Source: Phycisphaeraceae bacterium D3-23 (lineage in GTDB: Bacteria > Planctomycetota > Phycisphaerae > Phycisphaerales > Phycisphaeraceae). Taken from it: a DNA stretch of 64,000 bases. The position numbers and the translations under genes are program-made. The notes beneath the pieces were generated by a model. That model searched no databases. It had not been told where the DNA came from and saw only the letters and a list, made by a program, of their open reading frames with translations. This document shows positions 32,273-42,360 of this stretch, piece after piece. Position 1 is the stretch's first letter. Each line of letters opens with the position of its first letter. The DNA is taken from NCBI GenBank assembly GCA_039555135.1, contig CP114179.1, positions 3,720,001 through 3,784,000 of the forward strand, written 5' to 3'.

Positions 32273-32938
32273 TCAGCGCCGCCGTCGCAGGAGCGTCAGC
32301 CCACCGAGGCCGAGCAGCGCGAGCGAGCCGGGCTCGGGGACGGGCGAGACATCGATGTAGATGTTATCCACGCGTGAGAACTCGCCTTGGGCGCTGTTGC
32401 TTTCGAGCCGGGCGAAGAGCGTGTTGCCGACCGCTCCGGCGTCGGAGAGCGCGACACCGCTGGCGGATTCGGTCTCCCAGGTGCTGGTCGAGACACGGCC
32501 GCCCGAGTCGAGGGTGGCGATGTCGGTCGCGGTGCCGCCGATCGTGTTGTCGGCGGTGTAGAAGAGGACCAGACGCATGGTGTCGTCGGCGTCCCAGTTG
32601 GCGGCGTCGCGCCAGCTGAACTCCATGTCGAAGCTATCGCCGGCCTGGATCGTGTAGCCGGTGTCGATGCCGAGGATACGGTCGAGGGTGGCGACGTAGT
32701 TGTTCGCGCTGCCCACGCCCTGGGCGTTGTTGGTGCGGAACTGGGGCGCCCCGGTGCCCAGGCTGACCCAAGGCGTGAAGCTGGCGTCGGTCAAGCCGGT
32801 CATGTCACCGGCGAGGACCGCGGCGTCGTGCCCGCCGCCCGCGACGCCGTCGTCGTAGTCCACCAGGATCGCGCCGGTGGCGCAAAGTGGAGCACTGGCC
32901 GCGAGGGCGAGCGCGGTGGTGATTCGTCCGAGTTTCAT
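32273..32938 (-). CDS. PEP-CTERM sorting-domain protein
   Basis: I start at the ATG of MKLGRITTALALAASAPLCA (32938), because AAGGAG lies 7 bases upstream of it; another ATG two codons earlier is too close. The 221-aa protein has a signal peptide, a beta-rich body (FDMEFSWRDAANWDADDTMR; LVLFYTADNTIGG; RVDNIYIDVS) and a classic C-terminal sorting signal VPEPGSLALLGLGGLTLLRRRR-type tail (Pro-Glu-Pro, hydrophobic helix, Arg cluster). Such proteins are exported and processed by exosortase at the envelope; the exosortase gene is not in the window. It follows the LacI regulator by 64 bp on the same strand. Confidence 0.88.
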   Translation of the reverse strand: MKLGRITTALALAASAPLCATGAILVDYDDGVAGGGHDAAVLAGDMTGLTDASFTPWVSLGTGAPQFRTNNAQGVGSANNYVATLDRILGIDTGYTIQAGDSFDMEFSWRDAANWDADDTMRLVLFYTADNTIGGTATDIATLDSGGRVSTSTWETESASGVALSDAGAVGNTLFARLESNSAQGEFSRVDNIYIDVSPVPEPGSLALLGLGGLTLLRRRR

Positions 32939-33002
32939 CTTCATTCTCCTTATCAGGTGGTAATTCGACGGGATCAACAGTGGCCCCGTGCAAAAACGGG
33001 GG

Positions 33003-34046
33003 TTAGTGCGCTTCGATCTCTGGGGCGACCGTTTGGTCAGCGGGCTGTTCGCCCTTGAGGAGTTGGAAGGCCATGCGGGCGGCGGCCTCTCCGATCGCGC
33101 GGGCGCGGATGCGGACGGCGACGCGGCGTTCGCGGGTGCCGACGGGTTTGTCGCCGGACTGGATCGCGGCCTGTGCGAAGCCGGGCGCGACGATGTCGGG
33201 GGCTTCGCTGATGATCTGGGAGATGGCGTTGGCGGGTTGGGTCCCGGGCGAGACGACGGCGTGCAGCGCGGGCCGGTCTTGTAAGAGCCGGTGCGCTAGC
33301 GGGAGCAGGTCGTCCGCCTTGGCGTGCTGGCCCTCTCGCTCGGGCATGACATAGCAGTCGAGCTGCGCCGGCAAGCCCGCTTCGCGCATCGCCCGCTGGT
33401 AGCCGCGGTACATGTCCAAAGCGAACCAAGTCCTCGGGCTGGGTTCTGATAGGTCATCAAAGGGGAAAGGGGACCAGAAAAGGACCTCCTTGAGCCCGGA
33501 CTCGATCAGCTTGACGGTGCTGTTGTAGCCCGCGGCGTCGTAGTCGGAGACGATCGACGGGATGCCGGCCAGGTTTCGACCAAAGACCTCGATCATCGGG
33601 AGCCCTGCGGCGGCGAGATCGAGTATCCGCCGCTGGTTTTCGGGGGTCGAGGTCCGCGGTGCGGTGTTGATGAGCAGCGCATCGACCTGACGGTCGGCGC
33701 AGATTTCGACCGACCGGGCCTCGTGCTCGCGGTCCGGGCAAGAGAAGGTAACCGGGGCGCATTGGTTTTCGGTCGCGACCTGCTGGACGCCGGCGTAGAG
33801 CTCGTAGGCGAGCGCGGCGTTGACGCTGCTGAGCAGGGTGGCGATCAGGTAGGTGCGTTGCTGGCGGAGCCCGCGGGCGAGCATGTTGGGCTTGTAGCCC
33901 AGCGTTTTGGCCGCTTCGAGCACCTTGTTCGCGGTGGTTTCACGGAACAGGTCGGCCTCGCCGAGCAGGACCTTGTTCGCGGTCGAGCGCGAGACCCCGG
34001 CGGCCTGGGCGACTTGTTGGACAGTGACAGGGGGCATCGTCCGCAA
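33003..34046 (-). CDS. LacI-family transcriptional regulator
   Basis: A 347-aa LacI/GalR-type repressor. The helix-turn-helix lies at about residues 7-28 (VTVQQVAQAAGVSRSTANKV), followed by the hinge (ETTANKVLEAAKTLGYKPN, then MLARGLRQQRTYLIATLLSS). The periplasmic-binding-protein-like effector domain fills the rest (LPMIEVFGRNLAGIPSIVSD; QLLKGEQPADQTV). Members normally sense sugars or their derivatives. Here the following minus-strand genes encode surface-type proteins rather than glycosidases. An inverted repeat (CCCCCGT/ACGGGG) follows the stop within the gap to the next gene. The start at 34046 or at the Met three codons later cannot be decided. Confidence 0.9.
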   Translation of the reverse strand: MRTMPPVTVQQVAQAAGVSRSTANKVLLGEADLFRETTANKVLEAAKTLGYKPNMLARGLRQQRTYLIATLLSSVNAALAYELYAGVQQVATENQCAPVTFSCPDREHEARSVEICADRQVDALLINTAPRTSTPENQRRILDLAAAGLPMIEVFGRNLAGIPSIVSDYDAAGYNSTVKLIESGLKEVLFWSPFPFDDLSEPSPRTWFALDMYRGYQRAMREAGLPAQLDCYVMPEREGQHAKADDLLPLAHRLLQDRPALHAVVSPGTQPANAISQIISEAPDIVAPGFAQAAIQSGDKPVGTRERRVAVRIRARAIGEAAARMAFQLLKGEQPADQTVAPEIEAH

Positions 34047-34333
34047 GTATGGACGCGCGATGGCCGGAAGTCAAGTTACCACGAAGTAAATACGCAAAAC
34101 CCGGCGCTCTTGGCCGGGTTGTGGGGCGAAGCCGGGTCGGCGGCTGCCTCTATCGTACGCGAATCGCCAGCGTGATATGTTTCTAATTATTGGAATAGGT
34201 TCTTGATTTCCGCGTTATGCTGGGGAGAATAGGCGCAGACTTGTTTGAGTCTGGCAATCTCTTCCCGTGGCCGGGCGTTTCGTGGCCACGGGTTGTAATC
34301 CCCCCCCCAGGCACTTTTTTCAGGAGCCACCCC
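34047..34333. other. Divergent promoter region between the lacI-type gene and the selenoprotein gene
   Basis: This 287-bp gap holds a hairpin AACCCGGC/GCCGGGTT (about 34099-34121) and then an AT-rich stretch (34175-34215, with TTTCTAATTATTGG and GTTCTTGATTTCCG) that likely carries the promoter for the + gene. TTATGCT (34214-34220) is a possible -10. A C-run (34302-34309) precedes the ribosome-binding site. No gene is visible. Confidence 0.4.
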
Positions 34334-34687
34334 ATGAAACTGTTCAAAACCCCCTTGCTGGCGCTGGCGATGTTCGCCGCGTTGGCCGCATGGTCGATGC
34401 AGCCGGTCTCGGCTGACGACGCCCCCCAAATCCCCGATGACGCCGCCCAGTACCTGATCCAGGTCGAAGGCATGTCGTGAGCCGGCTCGTGCACTCGCAA
34501 GGTCCGTGAGGCCTTGATGGCTCTTGACAATGTCGGCGTTGTTGTCGCCAACTGCTCGCGCGGTACCGCGTTGGTCACCATGACCAGCGCCGAAGCCGAA
34601 CTCTCGCAGGAAGCCGCAGCCGCCGCACTCAGCGGTGCCGGTAGCTACACGATTAAGTCCATGAGCAAGGTCGGCGAAGACGAGTAA
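34334..34687 (+). CDS. Predicted selenoprotein: exported HMA-like metal-binding protein with in-frame UGA (Sec49)
   Basis: ATG 34334 has AGGAG 7 bases upstream. A signal peptide (MKLFKTPLLALAMFAALAAW, cleavage near SA-DD) leads to a heavy-metal-associated (HMA) type domain. Codon 49 is TGA (34478-34480) within VEGMS-U-AGSCTRKVREAL. HMA and MerP-like domains have GMxC-x(2,3)-C here, so UGA falls exactly on the first metal-binding cysteine. After it the frame stays open for 68 codons with the rest of the fold (helix CTRKVREALMALDNV, strands GVVVANCSRGTALVTM, helix AELSQEAAAAALSG, strand SYTIKSMSKV) to TAA 34685. A SECIS-like hairpin follows the UGA. Full product 117 aa. The alternative is a nonsense mutation or error (TGC to TGA). 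selABCD are not in the window. Confidence 0.78.
34484..34513 (+). promoter_or_regulatory. Bacterial SECIS-like hairpin just downstream of the UGA codon
   Basis: In the mRNA, GGC (34484-34486) pairs with GCC (34511-34513), then, past a bulged G110-type base, UCGUG pairs with CGUGA (34505-34509), and ACU pairs with GGU (34501-34503) across one C-C mismatch. The apical loop is CGCAA, with G34497 as its second base, 17 nt after the UGA. Bacterial SECIS elements need a stem-loop starting close to the UGA, with a G among the first two loop bases about 16-37 nt downstream. The hairpin is coding at the same time. Predicted by eye, not by folding software. Confidence 0.55.
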
Positions 34688-34724
34688 CACTCGCCCGACC
34701 CGCCATCGTTAGATACCACGCTTC

Positions 34725-34758
34725 AGCGGCCCGCACGCCCCGGGCCGCTGCTGCTTTT
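34725..34758 (+). terminator. Terminator-like hairpin after the selenoprotein gene
   Basis: AGCGGCCCG (34725-34733) pairs with CGGGCCGCT (34741-34749) around CACGCCC, followed by GCTGCTTTTAA. The stem is strong and perfect, the T-run short. It lies 37 bp after the TAA at 34685, which supports that stop, not the UGA, as the end of the gene. Confidence 0.7.
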
Positions 34759-34788
34759 AATGCAGCGACCTCATTGCCTTCTAGCCGT

Positions 34789-34837
34789 ATCGCTACGCGA
34801 TGCCGGGGCGTCGCTGGGACCGGCATCGCGTAGCGAT
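34789..34837. repeat. Perfect 18-bp inverted repeat upstream of lnt
   Basis: ATCGCTACGCGATGCCGG (34789-34806) and CCGGCATCGCGTAGCGAT (34820-34837) are perfect inverted copies with a 13-base loop. No T-run follows. It overlaps the open frame upstream of lnt but not the start I choose, and looks like another dispersed palindromic element. Confidence 0.82.
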
Positions 34838-34886
34838 GCGCCTAGTGAAAACAGCGTGCTGCCTCCCCCGGTATCCTGCGCGGTGC

Positions 34887-36797
34887 ATGGCCGACGCCCC
34901 CTCACATGACGAACTGCCCAAGGCCACATCGAGCTACCTCCGGCGGTACGGCATCGACTCGGTCTGGGCCCACCTCGCGCTCAATCTGGCGTCCGCGCTG
35001 ATGCTTACGCTCGCGTTCCCCAAGCCCGGGTGGGCGGCGATGGCCTTCTTCGCGCCCGTGCCCATCGGCGTGCTCGCCATGCGCACGACCCGGCTGTGGA
35101 CCCTCGCGTGGACGACGCTGCTCGTCTTCACCGGCTGGTGGTCGCTCCGCGTCGGCTGGCTGGGCGCGGTGTCGCCCGGTGCGCCGTGGGGCATGGGCCT
35201 GTTGTGTGGGACGTACATGATGGTGATGGCGGTCGCGCTCGCGCGGGTGCAGCGCCGGTTCCGCTCAGCATTGACACTGACACTCCCCGTCTTCTGGGTC
35301 GCGCAGGAAGCGGCACGCAGCGCCTGGCCCTGGGGCGGTTTCCCGTGGTTCTCGCTGGGCTCGTCGCAGGCGATGTGGAAGCCCACCGACTCGACCGCCG
35401 TGCCGATCCCCAGCGGGCTGCTCGTGCAGTCGGCGGACCTCTTCGGCGTCCTCACGGTGAGTTTCCTGGTCGCGATGACCGCCGGGCTCATCGTCGATCT
35501 CATCGCGCGTCCGATGACCAAACGCCTGCCCACCGGCAAGGTGCGCGTCCGGCGGACCGTCGTTTTCGCGGTCGCGGGCTGGGTCGTCTGCTTCGCCGGG
35601 GCGCTGGTGTATGGCTACATGTCGTTGGCGGCGCACGATTCGCCATCGACCGGGCCCGAAACGCGCACAGCCACAATCACCGTCATCCAGACCAACGTCC
35701 CCCAGAGCAACAAGATGGAGGGGACCTCGGCGGAACACTATCGCCGACGCATGGCCGACTGGGACCGGCTGTTCGACCTGACCAAGCTCGCGCTCGCGGA
35801 GTCGCCCGACGCGGACCTGGTGGTCTGGCCCGAGACCATGGTTTTGCGGCCGATCAATGATGAGTACGTCGCGATCCTCGACACATGGTTGGCTGTGGGC
35901 GCGCAGGCCGAGGCGGACGGCGTGTTGGCGGAGGATGAAGAACTCGTCGCGCAGGTTGAGCTGGCGACGCGGGAGCGCGCGTTCCGGACGCGCATCGATG
36001 CGTTTGCGGTGCAGTACGACACGCCGATCATCGCGGGCGGCCGGGCGCAGTATGTCGACGAAGACGAGCGGCTGATGAACTCGGCGTTCCTGGTGGTGCC
36101 CGGGGCCGAGTCGTACCCGCGTTACAGCAAGCAGTGGCTCGTGCCGTTTGGCGAGTACGTGCCCGGCCCGCGGTGGACCCGGCAGTGGTTCCACGACAAC
36201 ATCAGCCCGTATGACTACGACTACACCCTGAAGCGCGGCGAGCGGCCGGTGGTGTTTGAGGTAGAGCTGGCACCGGCGTCGCGTCATGACGCGGGGATTG
36301 GGGAGGGTGACGAAGAAGCACCGCGTGCGACAGATACACCGCTGCGTCTCGCGACGCCGATCTGTTTCGAGGACGCGGTCGGGTCTGCCTGCCGGGAGAT
36401 GGTCTACGCCAACGACGGGACCAAGCGGGTCGACCTGCTGGTGAACCTGACCAACGACGGCTGGTTTGCGGGGACGCACCAGGGCTACCAGCACCTGCAG
36501 CTCGCGTCGCTGCGCTGCATCGAGAACCGCGTGCCGATGGCGCGAAGCGTGAACACCGGGGTGAGCGGCTTTATCGACTCCTCGGGTCGCGTGACGCAGG
36601 TCGTCTCCGTCGGCGGCAAGTCGCAGGAGGTCGATGGCCACGCGACCGCACAGGTCCAACTCGACACCCGCAAGACGCTTTACGGCAGGGTCGGCGAGGC
36701 GGGCCCGGTTGGCGTCGGGCTCACGGCGACGCTGCTGCTGCTGGGCACGTGGGTGCCGCGCCGGCTGCTGTCATCTCGCCGACATCGGATAGGATGA
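34887..36797 (+). CDS. lnt: Apolipoprotein N-acyltransferase Lnt
   Basis: Lnt adds the third acyl chain to lipoproteins in the inner membrane. I start at ATG 34887 (MADAPSHDELPKATSSYLRR), because the frame upstream runs through the palindrome; this gives 636 aa, longer than the usual 500-550. Six or so membrane helices occupy residues 25-230. The nitrilase-type domain has the triad Glu316 (VVWPETM), Lys415 (RYSKQWLVPFGEYVPG) and Cys493 (ICFEDAVG). Extra length lies in acidic loops around 340-380 and 455-480. LTNDGWFAGTHQGYQHLQLA is the expected Lnt C-terminal motif. Several lipoproteins in the window would be its substrates. Confidence 0.93.
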   Translation: MADAPSHDELPKATSSYLRRYGIDSVWAHLALNLASALMLTLAFPKPGWAAMAFFAPVPIGVLAMRTTRLWTLAWTTLLVFTGWWSLRVGWLGAVSPGAPWGMGLLCGTYMMVMAVALARVQRRFRSALTLTLPVFWVAQEAARSAWPWGGFPWFSLGSSQAMWKPTDSTAVPIPSGLLVQSADLFGVLTVSFLVAMTAGLIVDLIARPMTKRLPTGKVRVRRTVVFAVAGWVVCFAGALVYGYMSLAAHDSPSTGPETRTATITVIQTNVPQSNKMEGTSAEHYRRRMADWDRLFDLTKLALAESPDADLVVWPETMVLRPINDEYVAILDTWLAVGAQAEADGVLAEDEELVAQVELATRERAFRTRIDAFAVQYDTPIIAGGRAQYVDEDERLMNSAFLVVPGAESYPRYSKQWLVPFGEYVPGPRWTRQWFHDNISPYDYDYTLKRGERPVVFEVELAPASRHDAGIGEGDEEAPRATDTPLRLATPICFEDAVGSACREMVYANDGTKRVDLLVNLTNDGWFAGTHQGYQHLQLASLRCIENRVPMARSVNTGVSGFIDSSGRVTQVVSVGGKSQEVDGHATAQVQLDTRKTLYGRVGEAGPVGVGLTATLLLLGTWVPRRLLSSRRHRIG

Positions 36798-39515: not shown

Positions 39516-39742
39516 ACCAGAGGTCCAGATAGACGCGATCCAAATCTGGACCCGCTTCCCGAGGCGAACGAATCGAACAAGCTGCGCCGGCCAGGGTGCA
39601 TACGCTATGGAAAACCGCCGTGGCAGGCCGATGAGTGGAGGGGTTATCGGCCGTTTGCCGCGTCGCCCGTCCAAGCCCGGTACAATCGTCACGGCCACCG
39701 GGCCAGCACCACCAAACGCCAAGAGGCCCCCGATCGGGGGGA

Positions 39743-40804
39743 GTGACCGCATTGATCCTCGATAGTCTTCTAAGCTGTTTCAGCGTCGATATGGGCATCG
39801 ACCTGGGCACGTGCAACACGCTCGTCTGCGTCCGCGGCGAAGGGATCGTGCTCAACGAGCCGTCCGTCGTCGCCGTAAAAAAAGGCACGAATCAAGTCCT
39901 CCAGAACGGCAACGCGGTGGGCTGGGTCGCCAAGGAGATGCTGGGTAAGACGCCCGGTTCGATCACCGCGATCCGTCCGCTCAAGGACGGCGTGATCTCC
40001 GACTTCCAGATCACCGAGGCGATGCTCGGCTACTTCATCCGCAAGGTCAACGGCAAGCGGCCGTTCGTGAAGCCGCGCGTCGTGATCGCCGTGCCCTCGG
40101 GCATCACCGCGGTCGAGAAGCGCGCGGTGCTCGAAAGCGCGGAGCGTGCCGGCGCACGGCGGGTGTACCTCGTCGAGGAGCCCATGGCCGCGGGCATCGG
40201 CGCGAACCTGCCGATCGTCGAGGCGACCGCATCGATGATCGTCGACATCGGCGGCGGCACGACGGAGGTCGCGGTGATGTCGCTGGCCGACATCGCGCAG
40301 TGCGAGTCGGTCCGCGTCGCGGGGGATGATCTGGACGAGTCCATCATCAACCACATGAAGAAGGCGTACAACCTGATGATCGGCGAGCAGACCGCCGAGC
40401 GCGTCAAGATCGAGATCGGCAGCGCCGCGCCCGACGGCGAAGAGCGCACGATGGAGGTCCGCGGCCGAGACATGATCTCCGGGCTCCCGCGCAAGACCGT
40501 CATCACCAGCGAAGAGATCCGCGAGGCGCTGCAAGAGCCGTTGAGCGCGATCATCGAGACCGTGACGCGCACGCTCGAGCGCTGCGAGCCCGAGCTCGCC
40601 GCCGACCTCGTCGACAACGGCATCGTCCTTGCCGGCGGCGGTGCGCTCTTGCGTGGGATCGACACGATCATCTCCAACGCGACAGGGCTGGACTGCCGGA
40701 TCGCCGAAGAACCGCTGACCTGCGTCGCCCGTGGCACCGCGATCTACCTCGAACACCTCGAGGAATGGAAGCAGACCATGGAAAGCGACATGGACGAAAT
40801 GTAG
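39743..40804 (+). CDS. mreB: Cell shape-determining actin homologue MreB
   Basis: MreB forms filaments that guide lateral wall synthesis. I place the start at GTG 39743; TTG 39752 is also possible, since GGGGGGAG lies 9 bases before it and would begin MILDSLLSCFSVDMGIDLGT, closer to other MreB N-termini. The 353-aa protein has the actin-fold phosphate loops (MGIDLGTCNTLVCVRGEGIV; IVDIGGGTTEVAVMSLADI), the EEPMAAGIGANLPI loop, and ENGIVLAGGGALLRGIDTII-like VDNGIVLAGGGALLRG near the end. MreB is kept in Phycisphaerae but lost in some other planctomycetes (established knowledge). Confidence 0.95.
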   Translation: MTALILDSLLSCFSVDMGIDLGTCNTLVCVRGEGIVLNEPSVVAVKKGTNQVLQNGNAVGWVAKEMLGKTPGSITAIRPLKDGVISDFQITEAMLGYFIRKVNGKRPFVKPRVVIAVPSGITAVEKRAVLESAERAGARRVYLVEEPMAAGIGANLPIVEATASMIVDIGGGTTEVAVMSLADIAQCESVRVAGDDLDESIINHMKKAYNLMIGEQTAERVKIEIGSAAPDGEERTMEVRGRDMISGLPRKTVITSEEIREALQEPLSAIIETVTRTLERCEPELAADLVDNGIVLAGGGALLRGIDTIISNATGLDCRIAEEPLTCVARGTAIYLEHLEEWKQTMESDMDEM

Positions 40805-40862
40805 GCGGAAGACGCTAGGGCCTGGGGCCTAGTCGGAGTCAGAAAACTTCAGCCCCCTATGC

Positions 40863-40893
40863 CCACGGCGTGCCGCGTTGCGGCATGCCGAGG
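40863..40893. repeat. Palindromic repeat between mreB and mreC
   Basis: CGGCGTGCCG (40866-40875) and CGGCATGCCG (40881-40890) form an imperfect stem inside CCCACGGCGTGCCG...CGGCATGCCGAGGGG. The same element, better paired, occurs before groEL2 (62343-62374). It fills the mreB-mreC gap together with an upstream GC-poor stretch. Confidence 0.7.
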
Positions 40894-40938
40894 GGTCACG
40901 CGAAAAACAAAATCGCTACCCAACCCCACACCCCCCCC

Positions 40939-41793
40939 ATGCTTACCGACACCACAACCCGGCGCATCCTGATTGCTTTGGGAGTGGTGTTTGTGCTCAA
41001 CAGCCAGCTCAATACCCGGCACATCAAGTGGGTCGGCACGGTGCCCAACGCGATCGTCAAGACGCTCGCCAACCCGCCCGCGTCGCTGATGCGGAGCGCC
41101 GCGACCCTAGTCAAGGGCCGGCCCGCCGAACCGACACACGTGGATGAGGCCCAGGGGCTCGAGGAACGCAACCGGAGCTACGCGCTCGCGGTGCTCGAAA
41201 ACCGCCGATTGTCCGAGGAAAACGCCGAGCTGCGCCGGCAGCTCAGCGCCTACCAGGCCGCCGCGGCCGTGCGGGGCAGCGAGACGATCCGCCTGATCGA
41301 GGCGCACGTCGCGGACAGCAACCCCAGCCGGTCCAACCCGACGATCGAGCTCGACAAGGGCTCGCGGGCCGGCGTGCAGCAGGGCAACCCCGTGATCGTC
41401 GTCGCCGATCTTGTTGGTTTCGTATCGAGTGATGTCGGCACGCTGCGTTCGTCGGTCCAACTGGTGACGATGCCCAAGGCCCGCTACCAGGTGCGCCTGC
41501 TCGCGCCCGAGGCGAGTGTGCAGCCCGACGACGAGCCGGTCTACGTCTACACCGACGCGACAGGCGAGTTTTTCTACTGCGACCTGCCCGACGGCCAGCA
41601 CGATGTCCGCGTCGGCGATATCGCGTCCATGGCCGACGACCTCTACCACCAGGCCTACGGCTACATCCTGGGCGAGGTCACCGAAGTCAACGACGACCAC
41701 CCCGACGACCCGCTCGCGCTCGACCGCATCATCATCCGGCCGTCGGTGCAGTTCGGCCGGTTGCGCGACGTCATGATCCAGGTGCAGGAGTAG
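40939..41793 (+). CDS. mreC: Rod shape-determining protein MreC
   Basis: MreC is the periplasmic partner of MreB and MreD in the elongasome. Starting at ATG 40939 (MLTDTTTRRILIALGVVFVL) gives 284 aa. It has an N-terminal membrane anchor, a coiled coil (about 75-105; AVLENRRLSEENAELRRQLS) and a two-part beta domain (VADSNPSRSNPTIELDKGSR; AGVQQGNPVIVVADLVGFVS) that matches MreC. The sequence is diverged, so part of the confidence comes from its place between mreB and mreD. Confidence 0.82.
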   Translation: MLTDTTTRRILIALGVVFVLNSQLNTRHIKWVGTVPNAIVKTLANPPASLMRSAATLVKGRPAEPTHVDEAQGLEERNRSYALAVLENRRLSEENAELRRQLSAYQAAAAVRGSETIRLIEAHVADSNPSRSNPTIELDKGSRAGVQQGNPVIVVADLVGFVSSDVGTLRSSVQLVTMPKARYQVRLLAPEASVQPDDEPVYVYTDATGEFFYCDLPDGQHDVRVGDIASMADDLYHQAYGYILGEVTEVNDDHPDDPLALDRIIIRPSVQFGRLRDVMIQVQE

Positions 41794-41802
41794 CGTGACG
41801 CG

Positions 41803-42360
41803 ATGAACTGGCTGATCTTCACACTCATCGCATACGGCACGTACGTCCTGCAGGCCGGGCTCGCGCCGGTATGGACGCTGGGCACGCGCACCGAGCCCCG
41901 GCTGCTGCTGATCCTGCTCGTCTACATCGCGATGCAGGCCTCACCGACGACCGTGGCCTTCGCGGCGCTCGTGCTGGGCGCGCTGCACGATATCCGCCAG
42001 ACCAGCGTGCAGGGGCTCATCGGCCCGTGGGCGCTGGGCTACCTCGCGGCCGGCTACGTCCTGCTCCAACTCCGCAACCTGCTTTTCCGCGACTCGGTGT
42101 TTACGATCGCGATCATGTCGCTCGTCGCCGGCGTCTTCGCCTACCTCGTCTCGACCGCGCTCTACGCGCTGCGCGGTGTGTCGTTTTTGCTGGGCCAACC
42201 CGTCGCCGAGTTCTCCGCCGCCAACGCGATGTTCCAGGGGTTCTTCGACCTGCTCTACACGGCCGTCATCGCGATGCCCGTCGGCTACCTGCTGATCAAG
42301 TCGCACGCGGCCTGGAGCTTCCAAGGCGCAAACTTCCACGGCGTCAGCCGATCGCGGTAG
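41803..42360 (+). CDS. mreD: Rod shape-determining protein MreD
   Basis: A 185-aa membrane protein with five predicted helices (MNWLIFTLIAYGTYVLQAGL; PRLLLILLVYIAMQASPTTV; FTIAIMSLVAGVFAYLVSTA; GFFDLLYTAVIAMPVGYLLI). The pattern and position directly after mreC fit MreD, the membrane partner of the elongasome. Sequence identity in this family is always low. A 108-bp palindrome follows 33 bp after the stop. Confidence 0.78.
   Translation: MNWLIFTLIAYGTYVLQAGLAPVWTLGTRTEPRLLLILLVYIAMQASPTTVAFAALVLGALHDIRQTSVQGLIGPWALGYLAAGYVLLQLRNLLFRDSVFTIAIMSLVAGVFAYLVSTALYALRGVSFLLGQPVAEFSAANAMFQGFFDLLYTAVIAMPVGYLLIKSHAAWSFQGANFHGVSRSR

Follow-up and report, generated by a model that had tools for sequence, protein, structure and literature searches.

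In overall design, the closest described counterpart of the gene considered here encodes MerP, the periplasmic Hg(II) binding protein (NCBIfam TIGR02052), which likewise consists of a single exported HMA domain. MerP has a C-x2-C motif and is located in mer operons. Selenocysteine (Sec) in HMA domains has precedents. The 74-position model NF041115 (UxxU_metal_bind) describes HMA-like proteins whose members, to judge by its name, can have Sec at ligand positions, and the accessible text of one catalog lists a UxxU metal-binding protein with two Sec (PMC13188914). A second model, NF045683 (MerT_CopZ_Se), covers a heavy-metal selenoprotein, part of which is HMA-like. As table entries in the accessible parts of their sources, there are also a cation-transporting ATPase E1-E2 selenoprotein (UxxC), an instance of Sec in a metal-transport protein (PMC13188914), and, in the GOS survey, a selenoprotein named "Mercuric transport protein MerP", with 2 sequences from 1 sample and no Cys homolog (PMC2398784); the latter name suggests a Sec-containing MerP.

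The window, a stretch of 64,000 nucleotides from Phycisphaeraceae bacterium D3-23, contains on its forward strand a gene (34334-34687, on the evidence of frame, conservation, and dN/dS) that very probably encodes a selenoprotein with this fold. Its frame opens with ATG 34334, meets an in-frame TGA at 34478-34480 (codon 49), and proceeds for 68 more codons to a TAA at 34685-34687, just as an initial annotation of this DNA had described it; the ribosome-binding site that it reported is seen as AGGAG at 34322-34326. With UGA read as Sec the product has 117 aa with Sec at residue 49, whereas the ordinary code gives 48 aa and ends the frame at 34480. The protein reads MKLFKTPLLALAMFAALAAW...VEGMS-U-AGSC..., where U is Sec49. 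Its N-terminus is hydrophobic (12-residue hydrophobicity of 2.56) over approximately residues 1-28 (34334-34417), and is probably the signal peptide that had been claimed, an identity read from this hydrophobicity, with cleavage presumed.

One HMA domain is present, at residues 42-103 (34457-34642), where Pfam PF00403 scores 28.8 bits, above its gathering score of 24.8 (Sec entered as Cys). The UGA for Sec49 occupies the first ligand position of the HMA motif, as the initial annotation had it, and Cys53 (34490-34492) the second, by sequence and alignments; the resulting spacing of U-x3-C is, however, one residue above the C-x2-C that is usual for HMA domains. Since C-x2-C is not needed for the Pfam HMA score, U-x3-C can be regarded as a variant loop. 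A third cysteine, Cys74 (34553-34555), is common to the window protein and those of genomes G002 and G022 in an alignment of the three, and is not shared by a wider set of 31.

Scores against the known models are low. No NCBIfam model reached its cut-off for P0001, P0002, L021, and six further family proteins. For TIGR02052 (cut-off 92.55 bits), P0002 scored 14.3 bits, P0001 was unlisted at E <= 1, and other family members scored up to 38.2, with one tandem protein at 63.3. Unlike MerP, the window protein has U-x3-C, and no mer family was found among the neighbors scanned. NF041115 (cut-off 95 bits) gave 19.7 and 22.7 bits for the proteins of the genus, up to 42.3 for other members, and 70.5 for a tandem; it models UxxU, in contrast to UxxxC here. 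NF045683, whose HMA-like part is fused to a transporter part, gave 20.3 and 22.2 bits for the genus proteins against a cut-off of 375. The E1-E2 protein, going by its table entry, is a membrane ATPase and differs in that respect, and the GOS MerP can likewise be compared by table entry alone. An exported Ux3C/Ux3U HMA family is absent from the catalogs checked: it is not in the table of 119 prokaryotic selenoprotein families/subfamilies in the accessible part of PMC13188914, nor described in the accessible text of PMC2398784, PMC9312934, PMC4807772 (table S9 excepted), PMC9402790, PMC12013277, or PMC8318568. The word "new" in the initial description of the gene is to be taken with caution, as Sec in HMA-type and related metal proteins is already listed. 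Automatic annotation truncates such genes at UGA, which may be why the family is missing from catalogs.

A profile built from three Sec proteins (A1) was searched against 392 genomes of the phylum Planctomycetota and matched in 82, Cys forms included. Among the matches retrieved, mainly for a reported TGA, TGA stands at the first ligand in 60 HMA domains from 51 loci and 49 genomes, of which 48 belong to the 392 and the other is G022. Two of 62 initial TGA records (L064 and L067) were removed, since in them the TGA ends a Cys form at its C-terminus, and five segments without a recognized motif were left out of the domain set. The motifs are Ux3C (37), Ux3U (9), Ux2C (5), Ux2U (4), and U alone (5), so that 46/60 have Ux3 spacing and 5/60 no second Cys or Sec at the ligand positions; the first domain of L095 fits its motif imperfectly. 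GMT or GMS directly precedes the TGA in 42 of the 60, and no further in-frame TGA lies inside the matched stretches. The spacing is Cx2C in 46 of 48 Cys controls, which are TGA-free matches with loci or inside retrieved stretches, Cys matches without a locus being excluded. Tandem proteins with two Sec are found at L056, L057, L059, and L082. The tandem HMA protein L068 has in-frame TGA at four ligand positions (UGVSU and UGVTU) and possibly contains four Sec.

The initial annotation had named random stops at this site in homologs as evidence against Sec. The retrieved homologs carry TGA or Cys at the Sec49 codon, and the sole other stop among the A1 matches, a TAG in G747, is that gene's own terminator. 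Cys forms with C-x3-C occur at L063, L064, L066, and L067. The Cys form L066 shares 87% identity with the Sec form L101 and retains the SECIS-like hairpin of L101 and L094, Sec forms near-identical to it; this combination suggests, at the level of sequence, that L066 is a recent Sec-to-Cys change. A 98-domain tree, unresolved at most of its forks, calls for at least 4 Sec/Cys changes, most simply 11. With start codons picked by a simple rule, 46/53 first-domain proteins have a strongly hydrophobic start, and 16 of those 46 also have a lipobox-like cysteine. Planctomycetota contain a large Sec-HMA family to which the window gene belongs; most members are predicted from these N-termini to be exported, and some are lipoprotein-like. 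If real, this sizable exported family, some of whose candidate proteins have two to four Sec, would enlarge the selenoprotein set of a phylum in which selenium has received little attention, and would offer a direct system for the role of a selenolate in a well-understood metal-trafficking fold, tighter soft-metal binding versus redox. The A3 profile, built from 31 Sec proteins, matched 236/397 class genomes, many through open frames of ATPase size, and is too general for counting family members. Five TGA-bearing class matches (G030, G110, G311, G357, and G363) were rejected, as their TGA lies outside the domain and their ligands are Cys.

An AlphaFold2 model (31 sequences) has a mean pLDDT of 83.6, rising to 92-97 for residues 41-110, and its secondary structure (E39-45, H52-62, E67-73, E78-83, H92-102, and E106-112) is the beta-alpha-beta-beta-alpha-beta order of the HMA fold, with residue 49 in the loop before helix 52-62. 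Together with the Pfam score, this bears out the earlier suggestion that the codons after the TGA complete an HMA fold. The best PDB match to the model is MerP (1osd), with further matches to CopZ and ATP7B domains. The product would accordingly be pictured as an exported 117-residue HMA-fold protein with Sec as first and Cys as second ligand (Ux3C), which may bind or buffer a soft metal or metalloid in the periplasm in the manner of MerP or CopZ, with a selenolate as ligand. By analogy, binding or buffering of Cu(I), Hg(II), or Ag(I) is the most likely function, one to which we give an even chance, on the strength of the GMT or GMS before Sec and the MerP match. Points against a metal role are the non-canonical x3 spacing, the lack of a second Cys or Sec in five domains, and the neighboring genes. 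At 31 loci, 68 neighbor ORFs were delimited by taking the longest ORF, a simple rule, and none of them matched a mer, HMA, or P-type ATPase family. In these ORFs 50 Pfam families were found, the commonest of which (IMS polymerase and HlyD/CusB membrane-fusion) account for 3/68 each; the CusB/HlyD-type domain is the nearest hint at a metal role, and no conserved operon partner was found.

A redox function is a tentative alternative, with a real though smaller share of our expectation. The HMA fold would then have become that of a selenol-thiol oxidoreductase or peroxidase of the periplasm, with Sec as its nucleophile; the resolving residue would be Cys or another Sec. The five domains with no second Cys or Sec favor redox chemistry, as they suit a single nucleophile over a two-ligand site, and the want of mer or P-type ATPase neighbors fits as well. 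On the other hand, the GMx motif, the fold, and the best structural matches are those of metal carriers, and the 68 neighbor ORFs show no recurring gene for a catalytic partner. We know of no HMA protein that acts as a selenol-thiol oxidoreductase or peroxidase. According to the accessible text of PMC13188914, resemblance to thiol oxidoreductases, or a UxxC/CxxU motif, is common among selenoproteins whose function is unclear. It is possible, if doubtful, that in Planctomycetota the HMA fold has given rise to widespread exported selenoenzymes, with selenium redox chemistry or a selenolate metal site without known counterpart, and that these include the two-Sec domains (Ux3U and Ux2U) and the four-Sec tandem L068.

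Whichever function holds, the proposal that Sec is inserted depends on how the UGA is read. In G002, an independent genome of the same genus, the protein is 80% identical and the TGA lies at the same codon, which makes a sequencing error unlikely; its retention there, and the 60 domains of 49 genomes that have TGA at the corresponding ligand, make a chance TGA very unlikely. Between the window gene and its G002 counterpart, dN/dS after the TGA is 0.276 over 66 codons (approximately 20 synonymous and 22 non-synonymous changes), compared with 0.06 before the TGA and with 1.39 and 2.0 in frames +1 and +2 after it. By this comparison, the post-TGA codons are under purifying selection. Codons 56-64, which contain the hairpin discussed below, are identical in the two genes. 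The source genome (G000) and G002 both have the Sec-HMA gene together with SelB and tRNA-Sec over cut-off; in three further genomes of the genus, G001, G003 (89% complete), and G004 (70% complete), no TGA-bearing match, SelB, or tRNA-Sec over cut-off was found.

The initial annotation had made its proposal conditional on sel genes in the genome, and selA, selB, tRNA-Sec, and a TGA-bearing selD are all present, on the same 4.62 Mb contig as the Sec-HMA gene. In contig coordinates, tRNA-Sec lies at 3629527 (65.3 bits against a cut-off of 47; called tRNA-SeC with anticodon TCA by ARAGORN) and selB at 3626090 (360.6 bits, with a SelB winged helix by Pfam), directly followed by selA. The selD gene (L122, G000 C1:3621249-3622178) has one in-frame TGA, in ..CGGU-AGK... 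This TGA of its own is at the usual Sec motif, and the gene is close to the selB-selA-tRNA-Sec cluster; UxxK is the motif given for SelD in the accessible part of PMC13188914.

Across the phylum, SelB over cut-off was found in 46/48 TGA-HMA genomes versus 189/344 others (Fisher p 2e-9), a test in which related genomes are non-independent. SelB was called from best E-values for the 48 and from the tally of 235 for the remainder, and the 344 are genomes without a TGA-HMA recognized by the A1 profile, which may include missed Sec-HMA genes. The two TGA-HMA genomes with no SelB over cut-off are G708, which is 64% complete and has tRNA-Sec, and G604, which is 88% complete and has a tRNA-Sec match of 45.5 bits, under the cut-off of 47. 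G022, from outside the 392-genome draw, has tRNA-Sec and SelB, the latter as a partial match of 254.4 bits.

Shortly downstream of the UGA, a candidate SECIS hairpin (CAAGGTC-CGTGA-GGCCTTG, 34498-34516) is identical in G002. Its loop begins 24 nt past the UGA and has G at its second position. The published rule for bacterial SECIS elements asks for G at the second loop position and for a loop distance like that of the window hairpin. Taken singly, the window stem is unexceptional against synonymous recoding (p 0.13), and the hairpin is outside the minimum-free-energy fold (z -1.0). Evidence for it comes from the family, in which the stem was read at fixed helix 1 codons in two registers picked after viewing the sequences. 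At least 5/6 pairs form in one of the two registers in 33/60 Sec versus 2/48 Cys domains, one of these two being L066, and pair scores differ between Sec and Cys domains with p 7e-9. Control registers gave at least 5/6 pairs in 6, 1, 1, and 1 of the 60 Sec and in 7, 3, 0, and 3 of the 48 Cys domains. The remaining 27 Sec domains have fewer than 5/6 pairs in both registers, several of them with a good stem elsewhere.

In covariation tests, which sequence kinship can inflate, 75.8% of cells are paired in the main register of the 60 Sec domains versus 63.5% after arm shuffles, none of 2000 of which was as high. Shifts of -2, -1, +1, and +2 gave 31.4, 32.8, 52.5, and 40.0% versus shuffled values of 29.9, 34.6, 51.5, and 38.3%; the second register, which is the +1 shift, is paired yet does not covary over all 60 (52.5% versus 51.5%). 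The main register has no excess in the 48 Cys controls (56.9% versus 56.0% shuffled). Stems surpass synonymous recoding at p < 0.05 in 23/60 Sec and 6/48 Cys domains. Raw folding energy after the codon was tried as a discriminator of Sec from Cys genes and discarded, giving no separation (p 0.70).

Readthrough by a near-cognate tRNA, e.g., for Trp, would also hold the downstream frame under selection. It is nevertheless very improbable as the explanation, given that retrieved motif-bearing homologs without the TGA have Cys at the Sec column, that the trait tracks SelB across the phylum and inside the genus, and that a covarying hairpin follows the UGA. An ordinary stop, as the standard code would have it at 34480, leaving a 48-residue exported peptide or a decaying pseudogene, is the least credible reading of all in view of the purifying selection on the 66 post-TGA codons, the 60 domains whose ligand codon is TGA, and the Sec/Cys exchange between near-identical proteins. 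The selenoprotein reading draws on UGA conservation, post-UGA selection, the sel genes, Sec/Cys exchange, the hairpin that covaries at the family level, and the modeled fold. Insertion of Sec at UGA 34478 is a prediction that is strongly supported by sequence analysis; SelB and tRNA-Sec would decode this UGA, aided by the SECIS hairpin formed by the helix codons that follow it.

The A3 profile also located a second Sec-HMA gene (L136, G000 C1:1357249-1357605, minus strand), which is also in G002 and lies, in both genomes, outside the 60-domain set. Its product is lipoprotein-like with the motif GMT-U-GGC, and the TGA of G000 aligns with that of G002. The hairpins of the two copies, ATCCAC-GGTCC-GTGGAT in G000 and GCCGC-GGTCC-GCGGC in G002, show compensating differences (with pairing judged by eye), and their fold energy against shuffles is unremarkable (z -1.4 in G000 and +0.7 in G002).

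Around the window gene, a divergent LacI-family regulator (Pfam LacI) lies upstream at 33003-34046 on the minus strand. Downstream, the terminator-like hairpin reported earlier is present at 34724-34750 on the plus strand, with 10 pairs and then a T-rich tail, at a level near chance (1 found, 0.6 expected in the region). Next is lnt (apolipoprotein N-acyltransferase, 34800-36797, plus strand; Pfam LNT_N and CN_hydrolase), whose true start is probably 34887; lnt also follows the Sec-HMA gene in G002, where it is 64% identical. Between the terminator-like hairpin and lnt is a long imperfect palindrome (34778-34848), perhaps a REP-like element. Rfam found no family at gathering score at the locus, and five microRNA models fell on this palindrome far below cut-off. 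Farther along, the stretch 39635-42360 holds mreB by Pfam, then ORFs that by position may be mreC and mreD, a guess. On the minus strand at 32273-32977, the encoded protein has the C-terminus VPEPGSLALLGLGGLTLLRRRR, an ending that we take to be a PEP-CTERM-like sorting signal.
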